Below the pieces are notes generated by a model. The model had not been told where the DNA came from. It saw nothing but the letters and a program-made list of their open reading frames with translations, and ran no database searches. Shown here piece by piece: positions 14,123-62,426 of a DNA stretch of 64,000 nucleotides. The stretch lies in assembly GCF_037969875.1 (NCBI RefSeq), contig NZ_CP150218.1:1984001-2048000 (forward strand). Reading direction: 5' to 3'. Position 1 is the first letter of the stretch. Each line of letters starts with the position of its first letter. Source of the stretch: Paenibacillus sp. FSL R7-0337. GTDB lineage: Bacteria; Bacillota; Bacilli; Paenibacillales; Paenibacillaceae. Position numbers and translations under genes: made by a program.

Positions 14123-14265
14123 AGAGTGCTCCACTTGGTCGAATTTGATTATAGGTATTGGGGAGGGCGTATGGTGGAGTCGGGTAGGGTCAGATAGAAA
14201 CTGGTAGTATCTGGGGGAGGCAGGTAACCTTAGTTAGTAGTAGAGAGGTTGAGACGGAACCAGTC

Positions 14266-14678
14266 TAATTCAGGAGCACTTGTGCTCCTCATTTGCGCCT
14301 ACCGCCGACTTTTGGCTAATTCAGATGCACTTGTGCTCCTCATTTGCGCCTACCGCCAACTTTTGGCTAATTCAGGTGCACTTGTGCTCTTCATTTTCGC
14401 CTACCGCCGACTTTTGAGTAATTCAGGTGCATTTGTGCTCCTCATTTTCGCCTATCGCCGACTTTTGGCTAATTCAGGTGCACTTGTGCTCTTCATTTGC
14501 GTTTACCGCCGACTTCCGCCGGGTTTCAAAGGGATGTATCCCTTTCCTTTCAGCTCCCTGCCCACTTTGGGCCAGTTCAAAGGGATTTATCCCTTCCCCT
14601 TTCGGCTCCCAGCCCACTTTTGGCCAATTCAAAGGGATTTATCTCTTTCCTTTCTGCATCCAGCTGTCAGCGCAACTC
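14266..14678 (+). repeat. 51-bp palindrome-headed tandem array 1 (5 A units, 3 B units)
   Basis: Five A units begin at 14266, 14317, 14368, 14419 and 14470, exactly 51 bp apart. Each has a palindromic head such as GAGCACTTGTGCTC or GTGCACTTGTGCTC and a linker ending ACTTTTGGCTAATTCA. Three B units begin at 14525, 14576 and 14628 with the head AAAGGGATTTATCCCTT and a linker ending ACTTTTGGCCAATTC. A and B thus share the linker but not the head. Because 51 is divisible by 3, one frame stays open across the array, giving a 17-residue peptide repeat, but there is no ribosome site and no sign of protein selection. Array 2 at 59762 has the same design. Confidence 0.9.
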
Positions 14679-14713
14679 AAAAAGCTCCGCCGCAGGTCGC
14701 GCGGCAGGAGCTC
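14677..14713 (-). terminator. Rho-independent terminator of the two-component operon
   Basis: On the minus strand AGCTCC-T-GCCGC pairs with GCGGC-GGAGCT around GCGACCT and is followed by TTTTGA, 20 bp after the response-regulator stop. Confidence 0.85.
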
Positions 14714-14732
14714 CAGAATTAGCTAGTTACAC

Positions 14733-58791: not shown

Positions 58792-59751
58792 ATGAACAAT
58801 GAGCATCCTCAGACTTGGCTGGCATATGATGATCCACTGGCAGTATTGGCGGTGCAGGCGATTCGTACCGGCAATGTGCCGGGATTGACACAATTACTGG
58901 CTGGAAACCCGGGGCTCGCTAAAGCCCGGATTGTTGGGGCTGAAGAGGGGCGTGCAAGTAACGAAGGGACCGGGAGCGGGGAGACTGGCGATGCCGGGAT
59001 TACAGAGACTGTCGGCGAGGACATTAGTAACACTGGGGCTAGTAACGAAGGCAATGGTAATGCTAATAGTGGCGACGTTGGGACAAGAGCAAACAGCGAG
59101 AACACAGGCGGCGGCACTGATCGAGGGATGTCACGTACACTGCTGCATATTGCTACCGACTGGCCGGGGCATTATCCCAATAATGCAGCGGTTGTAACGG
59201 CGCTGATAGAAGCTGGGGCAGACGCGAATGCCCAGTTCGGCGGACCGCACAGCGAGACGCCGCTGCACTGGGCAGCAAGCTGCGATGACATCGAGGTGCT
59301 GGACCTTCTACTTGACGCCGGCGCTGACATTGAGGCCTCGGGCGCCGTCATCGCTGGCGGGACCCCGTTGGACGATGCCGTGGCATTCGCACAGTGGCGG
59401 GCAGCGCAGCGGCTGGTGGAGCGCGGGGCCAATTCAGCGCTCTGGCATGCGGCGGCGCTCGGGCTGCTTGATAGGATGGAAGCCCACTTCGCCGGAGACT
59501 TGCTCTCCCGCCGCTTCCCTTGGGGCGCAAGCTCCGGTTCAGCAGCACCGGACGAGGTAAATGTTGCGTTCTGGTGCGCCTGCCACGGCGGACAACGCGC
59601 CGCCGCCGAATACCTGCTCGGCCAGGGAGCCGAGCTCAACTGGCGCTCCACATGGGATTGCCTCTCTCCCCTGGACGCAGCTCTGCGCAGCAATGCCACT
59701 GAACTAGCAGCATGGCTAGAGGGGCTGGGCGCTCAGTCCGCACATCAGTAA
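58792..59751 (+). CDS. Ankyrin-repeat protein with a Gly/Asn-rich insert
   Basis: 319 aa. After about 45 residues comes a low-complexity insert (about 50-110) rich in Gly, Asn, Ser and Glu, with repeated -SNEG- and -NTG- words, then ankyrin repeats (LLHIATDWPGHYPNNAAVVT, ADANAQFGGPHSETPLHWAA, VLDLLLDAGADIEASG) and a final repeat-like end. GGAGGGG precedes the ATG. The insert may be a recent expansion, since it splits the first ankyrin-like unit. Function unknown. Repeat array 2 starts 10 bp after the stop. Confidence 0.82.
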   Translation: MNNEHPQTWLAYDDPLAVLAVQAIRTGNVPGLTQLLAGNPGLAKARIVGAEEGRASNEGTGSGETGDAGITETVGEDISNTGASNEGNGNANSGDVGTRANSENTGGGTDRGMSRTLLHIATDWPGHYPNNAAVVTALIEAGADANAQFGGPHSETPLHWAASCDDIEVLDLLLDAGADIEASGAVIAGGTPLDDAVAFAQWRAAQRLVERGANSALWHAAALGLLDRMEAHFAGDLLSRRFPWGASSGSAAPDEVNVAFWCACHGGQRAAAEYLLGQGAELNWRSTWDCLSPLDAALRSNATELAAWLEGLGAQSAHQ

Positions 59752-59761
59752 GTAGCGCTGG

Positions 59762-60092
59762 GCGGAATTAGGTACACTAGTGCTCCTAATTCCCATATCG
59801 CCCGCTTTCTGCGGAATCAGGTGCACTAGTGCTCTTCATTTCCTCATATCGCCCGCTTTCTGCGGAATCAGGTGCACTAGTGCTCTTCATTTTCTCATAT
59901 CACCCGCTTTCTGCGGAATCAGGTGCACTAGTGCTCTTCGGTTCCTCATTCTGCCCACTTTCACCTTCACCAAAGGGATTTATCCTTCTCATTCCCTCAT
60001 TCTGCCCACTTTCACCCTCACCAAAGGGATTTATCCCTCTCATTTACTCATCCTGCCCACCTCCACCCTCACCAAAGGGATTTATCCCTCTC
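59762..60092 (+). repeat. 51-bp palindrome-headed tandem array 2 (4 A units, 3 B units)
   Basis: A units start at 59762, 59811, 59862 and 59913 (49, 51, 51 bp), with head GGTGCACTAGTGCTC. B heads CAAAGGGATTTATCCCT start at 59971, 60022 and 60073 (51 bp apart). A and B linkers share CTCAT, then GCCC and CTTTC, but differ from those of array 1. Heads are nearly identical between arrays (for example TCAGGTGCACT-t/a-GTGCTC; AAAGGGATTTATCCC). The order A then B and the strand are also the same. It lies between convergent genes. Confidence 0.9.
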
Positions 60093-60132
60093 ATTTACTC
60101 ATTTACTCATTTACTCATTTACTCATATACTC
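60093..60132 (+). repeat. 8-bp microsatellite (five ATTTACTC units)
   Basis: Four ATTTACTC copies and one ATATACTC directly continue the last B unit of array 2, which itself contains ATTTACTC. It is probably slippage expansion of the linker. Confidence 0.85.
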
Positions 60133-60182
60133 CTCTCGCCCCCCATACCCGCCCTTATACAGCACGGCGGTTCCACAACGAA

Positions 60183-60209
60183 ACAGGACCAGCCCAAGGC
60201 CGGTCCTGT
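60183..60209 (-). terminator. Hairpin downstream of the SLH serine hydrolase
   Basis: ACAGGACC (60183-60190) pairs with GGTCCTGT (60202-60209), with GGC/GCC-type pairing inside; on the minus strand TTTCGTTG follows. It is 100 bp past the stop codon, the nearest terminator. Confidence 0.6.
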
Positions 60210-60308
60210 GTTCATTGTCGCCGGAAGCTTCGACTAGACAGCTTCATAAATAGCATCATCCCAAAGCTCCGGCACATTAGTCATACCTGCTGTGCAAACC
60301 GCAGGTTC

Positions 60309-62426
60309 CTACTTCCCGCCTTCCGCAGCCTGCGACAGCTTGCTCACGATCTGGTCGATCGGGTTCGAGAACAGCGCGTACAGAATGGCGGCGTTCTCCT
60401 TTTTGCTCAGTGCGGCAGTGGACTTGTAGTCCACAGCGCCCTTGGCATCCGGCTTGAAGTCTGGTCCGTACAGGCCCAGGGCAACGGCCATCTTCACGGC
60501 CGGAACGGCCCATTTATCTGTAGTACCGGATAGCTTCACGTTCTGGAACACTTTATCCGGGTATTGCTTATTGTATACTCTCCATATCATGACCGCAGCC
60601 TCCTGGCGGGAGATCACCCGGTCCGGCTGGAATTCTCCGCTTGCTGTTCCTTCAATCATTCCCAGCTCAACTGCCTGCTGAATGAAAGCGGCATCGGGAT
60701 GGCCCTGCAGATCCGGGAAGGCCAGCTTCTCAGTCGAACTTCCCTTGAGTCCGCTGCTCTCCATCATCAGCCGCACATACTGGGCGCGCGTAATGCCCGC
60801 CTCAGGCTGGAAGCTCAGCGTGGCATCATTCGTCAGATACCCCAGCGATTGGAGCATCTGAACCGGAGCTGCATAAGGATGGCTTGCGGGAACATCGGCA
60901 TAACCGACGCCATCCGGCCCCTTTTGCCCGTAGCTGAACGGATTGAGGTAAGGCTCCTTCATATAAGCGCTTTGTCCGTCTGCCTCCAGAGCAAAGCCCG
61001 TTAACTTACCGGTCAGCTCATCCGTGAACAGATTATCATCTACCTGGATCAGCTTGCGGGAACCCAGAAAAGTATCGTTAATCATTAGCGCACCATTCTG
61101 CACAGAGACTGTAGACACCAGACTCTTCATACGGAGATCCGCATAGTAGCCAGTGAATGCCTTCAGCGCTTCAGCACTCTTCGGCTTGTAGGCATCCAGC
61201 TTCACCGGAGAGGCATATTGCGGGAAGAATGTCTGGATAAAGGCCGGATAGAACTGCTCCCGCAGTGCACTCTGCTGATTATAGGCAATGAACACCCCGG
61301 TGTTCTGCTCGGGGATTAGAACCATATACGTGCTGAACCCGACTAAATCACCAGCCTTGGTAATGATCTTGGAGCTGCTGCCGGCTCCCGGAAGCTGAAT
61401 AGGCGCTTCAAAGCCGTAGGTGGTATTCGGCAGCAAAGGATGAATCTCGGAGCGGTATTCCTCCATAGATTGTACTGTGTCTTCCTTAAGAATACGGGTA
61501 TTGTCAACCGCACCCCCGTTCAGAAAAGCCGTCATGAACCTCCCAACATCATCGCCAGTAGACAGCATGCCGCCTTGAGGCATCACGGTTGGCGTCACAT
61601 TGTACAGATCGACCTCTTTGCCAGTAGCATCATAAGCAGTAGCAAGATTGTCCTTCAGCTTACCTTCCAGCAGGAAGCCGCTTGAATCCATCTTCAGCGG
61701 GGCGAATACATGCTGCTGCATATAATCCTCATACGGCATGCCGCTGGCCTTCTCTACCACCAGACCGAGCAGCATCGAAGCGAAGTTGTCATACATGTAA
61801 GAGGTGCCCGGCTTGCGCACCACCGGCGGCATATGCTTCACCACATAATCCTCAATCGACACCTTGGTGGTGAAATCCTGATTGAAATCCTCCGGCAGCG
61901 GGTCCTGGATACGGAAGCCGGTTGTGTGAGTCAACAGATCCGCAACCGTTACCGGAACGCCGAAGGGATTGTCGAAGGCCAGCTTGCCGGTATAGGTTTG
62001 AAAATCCGCCTTCAAATCGAGCTTCCCCTGCTCCACGAGCTGCATGGCAGCAGTGGCGGTGAAGGTTTTGGAGACGGAGGCCAGGCGAAAGACGGTCTTG
62101 TCTGGGTCTACCTTGCTTGCGGCAGCCTTGTCTGCATATCCGAAGCCTTCCTTCACTACGGTCTTGCCGTCCTTAACAACTACCACAACAGCACCGGCAA
62201 GCTGTGCCTGCACCTCCTTCGAGCTGAAGAACGGCTTAAGGAAGGCATCCACATTCTCAGTAGTCAGCGGCTTGCCCGTTACAGCCGCTGCAGCCGGAGC
62301 GGCCGAAGAAGCAGGGGGAACAGCGGCGGCATGGACAGCCGGAGCCGTCAGTGTCAGCACCAGGGTAGCCGCAAGTACGGTTCTTGTCCAAAAGGCAGAG
62401 CGGCGGCGCAATAATGACAAATTCAT
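60309..62426 (-). CDS. Secreted serine hydrolase with SLH domains
   Basis: 705 aa. A signal peptide (cleavage near VHA-AA, residue 33) precedes a class C beta-lactamase/PBP-like domain (about 60-410): SxxK at Ser117-Lys120 (SVSK), YxN as YDN in SYMYDNFASM, and a KAG segment (ITKAGDLVGF) in place of KTG. A beta-rich linker domain follows, and three S-layer-homology-like modules (about 520-690; YADVPASHPYAAPVQMLQSL, FPDLQGHPDAAFIQQAVELG) would anchor it to pyruvylated wall polymer. Likely a wall-bound peptidase or esterase. Confidence 0.88.
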   Translation of the reverse strand: MNLSLLRRRSAFWTRTVLAATLVLTLTAPAVHAAAVPPASSAAPAAAAVTGKPLTTENVDAFLKPFFSSKEVQAQLAGAVVVVVKDGKTVVKEGFGYADKAAASKVDPDKTVFRLASVSKTFTATAAMQLVEQGKLDLKADFQTYTGKLAFDNPFGVPVTVADLLTHTTGFRIQDPLPEDFNQDFTTKVSIEDYVVKHMPPVVRKPGTSYMYDNFASMLLGLVVEKASGMPYEDYMQQHVFAPLKMDSSGFLLEGKLKDNLATAYDATGKEVDLYNVTPTVMPQGGMLSTGDDVGRFMTAFLNGGAVDNTRILKEDTVQSMEEYRSEIHPLLPNTTYGFEAPIQLPGAGSSSKIITKAGDLVGFSTYMVLIPEQNTGVFIAYNQQSALREQFYPAFIQTFFPQYASPVKLDAYKPKSAEALKAFTGYYADLRMKSLVSTVSVQNGALMINDTFLGSRKLIQVDDNLFTDELTGKLTGFALEADGQSAYMKEPYLNPFSYGQKGPDGVGYADVPASHPYAAPVQMLQSLGYLTNDATLSFQPEAGITRAQYVRLMMESSGLKGSSTEKLAFPDLQGHPDAAFIQQAVELGMIEGTASGEFQPDRVISRQEAAVMIWRVYNKQYPDKVFQNVKLSGTTDKWAVPAVKMAVALGLYGPDFKPDAKGAVDYKSTAALSKKENAAILYALFSNPIDQIVSKLSQAAEGGK

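Follow-up and report, generated by a model that had tools for sequence, protein, structure and literature searches.

The window analysed here, a stretch of 64,000 nucleotides, covers positions 1984001-2048000 of the single 7,714,111-base contig that forms the 7.71-Mb chromosome of its source genome, Paenibacillus sp. FSL R7-0337 (G000). Array 2 (59762-60103, plus strand) lies in the gap between two convergent genes, one for an ankyrin-repeat protein (58792-59751, plus strand) and one for a beta-lactamase-fold protein with S-layer homology domains (60309-62426, minus strand), both of which have their stop facing the array. Its period is 51 nt, and it has four A units and then three B units, followed by repeats of the 8-nt CTCATTTA. 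The A block (59762-59944) carries 18-nt palindromic heads at 59770-59787, 59819-59836, 59870-59887, and 59921-59938, and the heads of the B block (59945-60103) are at 59972-59989, 60023-60040, and 60074-60091. The existence of this array, first proposed in a sequence-only reading, is borne out by the sequence itself and by TRF, which returned the A units at 59762-59962 (period 51, score 309) and the B units at 59945-60103 (period 51, score 269). TRF also places a minisatellite of 5.4 copies of CTCATTTA at the B end of the array (60090-60132, plus strand), probably a slippage product from the start of the last linker.

Array 1, also on the plus strand, has an A block of five units (14265-14515; heads at 14272, 14323, 14374, 14425, and 14476) and a B block of three units with steps of 51 and 52 (14525-14654; heads at 14528, 14579, and 14631). 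It is flanked by two minus-strand open reading frames, and the frames around the two arrays confirm that array 2 sits in a convergent gap and array 1 does not. Between the B-side gene and the array there is in both cases a terminator-like hairpin with a T tract on the minus strand (60175-60209 at array 2 and 14673-14714 at array 1), while the scan found no such hairpin behind the A-side gene of array 2 towards the array. Gene and terminator scans used simple in-house rules without an outside check.

Census and unit anatomy

The A-head pattern has 188 matches in the G000 genome (both strands, with palindromic double hits counted) against none for the reversed pattern, and the B-head pattern has 87, again against none for the reversed control. 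Far in excess of chance, these matches form about 40 arrays in the chromosome, counted in the window and in 40 regions, each 10-12 kb long, that were chosen by head-pattern matches on both strands, and the same family is present in close relatives. One large example, at 2.804 Mb, has 15 units. Together, G000, G115, G063, and G087 contributed 849 units in 127 arrays, with 17 regions of G063 and 20 of G087 taken among the matches listed, a G087 cluster at 5740.9 kb left out, and stretches below 100 bases uncounted. Seven other stretches with a 51-nt period scored zero with the matrix described below and stand outside the 127; four are of type C (see below), two resemble coding repeats, and one is locus L159 of G087. 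The 127 arrays are not independent because G000 and G115 share most of their loci, with both flanks and the array in common at 30 of the 40 G000 sites. Across the genus, the A-type pattern, taken alone, had no match in 76 of 100 genomes. In G000 (about 3.46-4.69 Mb) and G115 (about 3.78-4.95 Mb), no array of either type was found in the roughly 0.45 Mb that flank dnaA to the left and right.

Judged from sequence, A and B are sister units that differ in their palindrome, since their linkers are plainly related. The skeleton CATTT..C....GCCCACTTTCGGC..ATTC is common to A and B linkers across loci, and the heads have conserved flanks, ATTC before and CATTT after. With one unit taken per locus from the four genomes, the A consensus is AGGtGCACTagTGCTCCTCATTTgCtC.TTT.GCCcaCTTTcGgcGAATTC (111 loci) and the B consensus is AaAGGGATTTATCCCTTTCATTTCc.CaTcC.GCCCACTTTCgGC..aaTC (72 loci). 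Among the arrays listed from these genomes, 408 of 445 A-A steps and 185 of 199 B-B steps (92-93%) are of 51 nt, yet only 27 of 74 A-B junctions are, and A and B are therefore separate tandem blocks placed side by side. The A-then-B order that had been claimed holds in 73 of the 77 mixed arrays listed and fails in four. The 127 listed arrays comprise 73 that run A then B, 40 with A only, 10 with B only, three that run B then A (one of them resting on a single hybrid head, at G063 L127), and one of the form A-B-A. The steps of other lengths bear on whether the arrays encode a 17-residue protein repeat. Open frames at 14249-14722 and 59780-60253 and a period divisible by three would suit such a repeat, but 40 of the 644 A-A and B-B steps in the listed arrays (33 of 52 nt and seven of 50 nt, array 1 included) would break any frame, making it extremely improbable.

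The commonest A heads of the two window arrays differ at one of 18 positions and the B heads at one of 17, which agrees with the earlier description of near-identical heads. The companion claim that linkers match within their own locus only does not stand, as the A linkers of arrays 1 and 2, compared by eye, agree at about two-thirds of 33 positions. In G000, the identity of A heads is 0.92 within and 0.80 between loci, and that of A linkers is 0.86 and 0.57; the corresponding values are 0.91 and 0.86 for B heads and 0.77 and 0.60 for B linkers. The proposal of conserved heads and locally homogenised linkers holds in these figures, but linkers also keep the skeleton common to A and B. Such a pattern is what would be expected from slippage or unequal exchange within each locus. 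Compensatory change was found at A-head pair 4-15 (102 Watson-Crick combinations against 73.4 expected) and weakly at pair 6-13 (312 against 297.8), and the Watson-Crick counts of the remaining head pairs were not above expectation. A hairpin maintained by compensatory change was rejected on these counts.

Array strand, replication, and gene direction

In G000, the strand of the arrays, as given by A- and B-head matches, changes twice round the chromosome. The dnaA gene lies at 4,187,029, and somewhere from 0.597 to 0.969 Mb the GC skew of the loci flips sign. No match to a dif pattern like that of B. subtilis turned up in eight genomes, and the placement of the terminus therefore rests on GC skew. 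Polarity was scored with a matrix of 51 columns that was trained on the two window arrays only and applied blind to strand. By this measure, arrays lie in the lagging-sense strand in 40 of 40 cases in G000, 44 of 45 in G115, and, among those listed, 21 of 21 in each of G063 and G087, for a total of 126 of 127. The replichore borders of G063 and G087 were placed near the antipode of dnaA; independently of any border, the sign of the GC skew of each locus, with the array excised, predicts the strand of 126 of the 127 listed arrays. Beyond these genomes, an exact 19-mer led to draft contigs of Paenibacillus piscarius, P. tritici, and P. silagei, in which 11 of 11 loci match the local skew, as do seven 3-kb loci of G022, G027, G028, and G034, two or three of which have near-zero skew. 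Within arrays, the B block is mostly origin-proximal and the A block terminus-proximal. The strand bias of the arrays switches at origin and terminus, as that of a polar motif does. Strand as such had been described as conserved, but it is reversed for arrays in the opposite replichore, and the constant is the strand relative to replication; the two window arrays agree because both lie in one replichore.

The sole wrong-way A array of G115 is at L105:5952-6159 (1770752). Its units and about 250 nt of adjoining DNA are common to a right-way array of G000 (L048:4389-4736). A piece of this adjoining DNA recurs at locus L144 of G087, which may mean that it travelled with another repeat.

Other palindromes occur in units of similar length. 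The 51-nt arrays of G022 have heads like AAGGGCATTTTTGCCCTT, and units of G028 and G034 contain a third one, called type C, whose sequence reads ATGTATnCGGTTTTCCGnATACAT; it is found also, with periods of 51-52, in G000, G115, G063, and G087. Type C arrays of 51-52 nt stand alone or adjoin A arrays (L038, L126, L139, L149, and L116, and 5.82-5.86 Mb in G028). The T-rich loop, read from the sequences, is lagging-sense in nine of the nine type C arrays in the examined loci. Genome-wide in G063, all 91 matches and all 26 arrays (20 on one arm and six on the other) obey the same rule. The G028 clusters near 5.82-5.86 Mb obey it as well, and one at 5313.6 kb opposes it. The type C matches of G000 number 17 forward and 36 reverse, counted by contig strand.

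Gene direction could in principle produce the same orientation if the arrays were transcript elements that belong to the B-side gene (its 3' UTR, its terminator, or a small RNA) and so followed the leading-strand genes. The B-side gene does aim into the array in 104 of 112 listed cases. These 112 arrays of the four genomes lie between two leading-strand genes in 54 cases, between convergent genes in 50, between divergent genes in five, and between two lagging-strand genes in three, and the small number of divergent contexts implies that arrays avoid promoters. Leading-strand genes make up 279 of the 391 genes in G000 loci (71%), so about 70% of arrays would be replication-oriented if gene direction were the only cause, against the 126 of 127 listed that are observed. 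In convergent gaps, transcription would be served by either array orientation, yet the gene on the B side is the leading-strand one in 50 of 50 listed (17 of 17 in G000). No array in the sample lies behind a lagging-strand gene in the opposite orientation. On the convergent gaps and the share of leading genes, transcript orientation was rejected as the cause of strand. The role in termination or as a small RNA raised in the sequence-only reading also found no backing. In 48 of 81 cases (G000 and G063 as listed) a terminator-like hairpin already separates an inward-facing gene from the array, covariation in the heads is almost nil, and no Rfam family matched at the gathering threshold in the window. 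An Rfam structured RNA family was rejected on these last two grounds, and the arrays are very unlikely to be transcript elements of any of these kinds. Polarity is tied to replication and not to genes, because it holds across replichores, mostly unshared loci, and palindrome types.

Turnover, insertion sequences, and the source of polarity

Among the 21 listed arrays of G063, none shares both flanks with a G000 array locus and four share one, and polarity is still obeyed. At shared (orthologous) sites, array lengths and unit numbers vary widely; at one of them, 13 A units plus a hybrid head in G063 correspond to a single unit in G087. The array at locus L024 of G000 is missing from G087, the one clean-looking empty site, but the whole spacer has been lost there at a short CGTCA repeat, which makes it a deletion. 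Units of the two replichores are mixed in sequence, with the nearest unit on the same replichore at 19 of 37 G000 loci against 18.0 expected, and the unit tree needs at least 13 replichore changes.

Array heads are also targets of insertion sequences. An IS3-family element of 1.26 kb (NCBIfam transpos_IS3, E 2.8e-108) is present in nine copies, counted at array loci only and, for G063 and G087, among those listed. Eight of the nine (L122:6183-7447, L093, L100, L120 in G115, L126, L134, L141 in G063, and L156 in G087) occupy the centre of an A or B head, where about 3 bp are duplicated; for the ninth (L112), no clear head can be made out around it. Both orientations occur, six with the array and three against it. 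Because A and B heads are hit alike, the target of this element appears to be the shape of the palindrome rather than one sequence. A second IS3-family element lies in linkers, in the orientation of the array in three of three copies (L025:4266-5667, L040:4982-6372, and L103:4308-5707), and further insertion sequences are found in array heads or linkers.

The best explanation at present, which we hold tentatively, is that the arrays are a REP/BIME-like intergenic repeat of one Paenibacillus branch that has spread and multiplied by way of DNA left single-stranded on the fork's lagging side. Polarity would then be set when units are copied or moved. Single-stranded repeat DNA of the lagging side, either Okazaki-strand copies or hairpins of the lagging template, would slip or anneal into other lagging-strand gaps, and a copy that passes from one lagging strand into another would stay in the same polarity on both replichores, even if it did nothing for the cell. 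The units within each array would then be made alike by local slippage or unequal exchange. Lagging-strand copying is favoured because its products are lagging-sense by construction, with no enzyme required. It is consistent with the lagging-sense strand of the listed arrays and of the loci from the three named species, with the obedience of type C in G063 and of the mostly unshared G063 loci, and with the mixing of replichore units and the turnover of units at shared sites. The failure of gene direction to account for polarity and the array-rich genomes that have no Y1 transposase (below) also support it. Against it, no new insertion was found, the sole empty-looking site being a deletion, and inversions about the origin-terminus axis, which keep polarity, could explain part of the replichore mixing.

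Predicted folding does not single out one favoured strand for the intermediate. With DNA parameters, A heads are predicted to be stabler on the array strand (196 heads against 108) and B heads show no strand bias, but whole arrays fold better on the non-array strand (34 of 40 in G000, and also 18 of 21 and 19 of 21). This counts against lagging-strand copying, as does the fact that its preference for one intermediate strand is an inference and not an observation. The folding predictions also bear on survival bias, by which hairpin-rich arrays would arise both ways and be deleted in one orientation. A heads stabler on the array strand, and hence less stable on the lagging template, would fit this proposal, but the unbiased B heads and the better folding of whole arrays on the other strand would not, and we give it a small chance of being right.

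Selection for a polar function would look identical to lagging-strand copying, and the main rival is a polar DNA landmark, in which the palindromes bind a protein, the linker gives direction, machines travelling from origin to terminus (the fork, the SMC complex, or SpoIIIE/FtsK) meet each array one way, and wrong-way arrays are purged. We consider this unlikely. The near-absolute polarity across species and palindrome types would suit a landmark, as would the conservation of the head with dyad symmetry but without compensatory change, like a protein site, the maintenance of the period of 51, and the position of the arrays mostly outside transcription units. Set against this are the 76 genomes with no match to the A-type pattern alone, head sequences that differ between types, the wide variation in unit number at orthologous sites, and the viability of wrong-way arrays in G115 (1770752) and G028 (5313.6 kb). 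It is rather doubtful, in our judgement, that the arrays are chromosome-wide one-way signs, i.e., palindromic protein sites on a 51-nt grid that are selected even though the palindromes change by type.

Alternatively, a Y1 (HUH) transposase of the REP/RAYT or IS200/IS605 kind could move single-stranded palindromes into the lagging-strand template, as IS608 does. This enzyme family targets the lagging strand, with the insertion polarity of IS608 (IS200/IS605) set by the lagging-strand template (PMC6006769), and replication-oriented tandem REP arrays are described for P. fluorescens SBW25 (PMC3116915). The Y1 transposase domain PF01797 is present in 56 of 100 genus genomes, and G000 has one full gene and two broken ones. 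G000 has only about five Y1 matches (354.6 kb, 2829.6 kb, 6038.0 kb), none of them at arrays, and the PF01797 search found none in the array-rich genomes G063 (65 and 116 pattern matches) and G119 (55 and 39), whereas G105, G030, and G061, which have no pattern match, have 12, eight, and six. Array-rich genomes that have no Y1 gene indicate that a RAYT or IS200-type enzyme is not needed now, and present-day dependence on Y1/RAYT was rejected for this reason. A past enzyme or another HUH family may stand behind the arrays, but the Y1 mechanism as a whole is improbable.

Known repeat systems and significance

The one clear precedent for replication-oriented tandem REP arrays is P. fluorescens SBW25, where five tandem GI-GIII arrays are forward near 2 Mb and six are reverse near 4 Mb (PMC3116915, Bertels and Rainey 2011). 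Both systems have tandem arrays, two palindromic repeat types, and fixed spacing; in SBW25, GI and GIII alternate at 112 and 72 bp, whereas the Paenibacillus arrays have A blocks and then B blocks with a 51-nt period. The present arrays also differ in their number (about 40), in their phylum, and in the absence of a Y1 transposase from some array-rich hosts. Neither the enzyme nor the ends of IS200/IS605 elements were found with the arrays, which do not lie next to tnpA.

Like REP/BIME and REPINs, the arrays are intergenic, palindromic, of high copy number, and targets of insertion sequences; Tobes and Pareja reportedly described REPs as such targets in 2006 (PMC1525189). The REP/BIME unit is an inverted pair of palindromes, but the Paenibacillus units are direct tandem repeats. 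REP/BIME palindromes have a GTAG/GGAG tetranucleotide at their foot, which was not found beside the heads, where the unit consensus has ATTC before and CATTT after instead, and the arrays show no link to RAYT. Because the inverted pairs, the tetranucleotide, and a RAYT link are all lacking, the arrays are REP/BIME-like in habit and are not filed as REP/BIME. BOX elements and MIRU/VNTR loci likewise consist of intergenic units, about 50 nt long, that stand in tandem in varying numbers, but the present arrays have their strand locked to replication and a palindromic head in every unit. Chi, KOPS/SRS, and similar skewed motifs also change their favoured strand at origin and terminus, but they are short single motifs, many of them inside genes, and the Paenibacillus arrays are clustered intergenic units of 51 nt. 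Within the terms searched, the open-access collection covered listed no paper on these Paenibacillus repeats.

For IS3-family elements the heads are structured landing sites, and for closely related strains the arrays provide fast-changing markers at fixed places. If the arrays were one-way signs, they would mark direction or anchor loops in replication, for SMC complexes, or in the transport of the spore chromosome, and if they were a landmark under selection, they would mark a so far unknown polar element of the chromosome. If lagging-strand copying is the true explanation, repeats in bacteria can spread by way of the lagging strand with no enzyme dedicated to the task.
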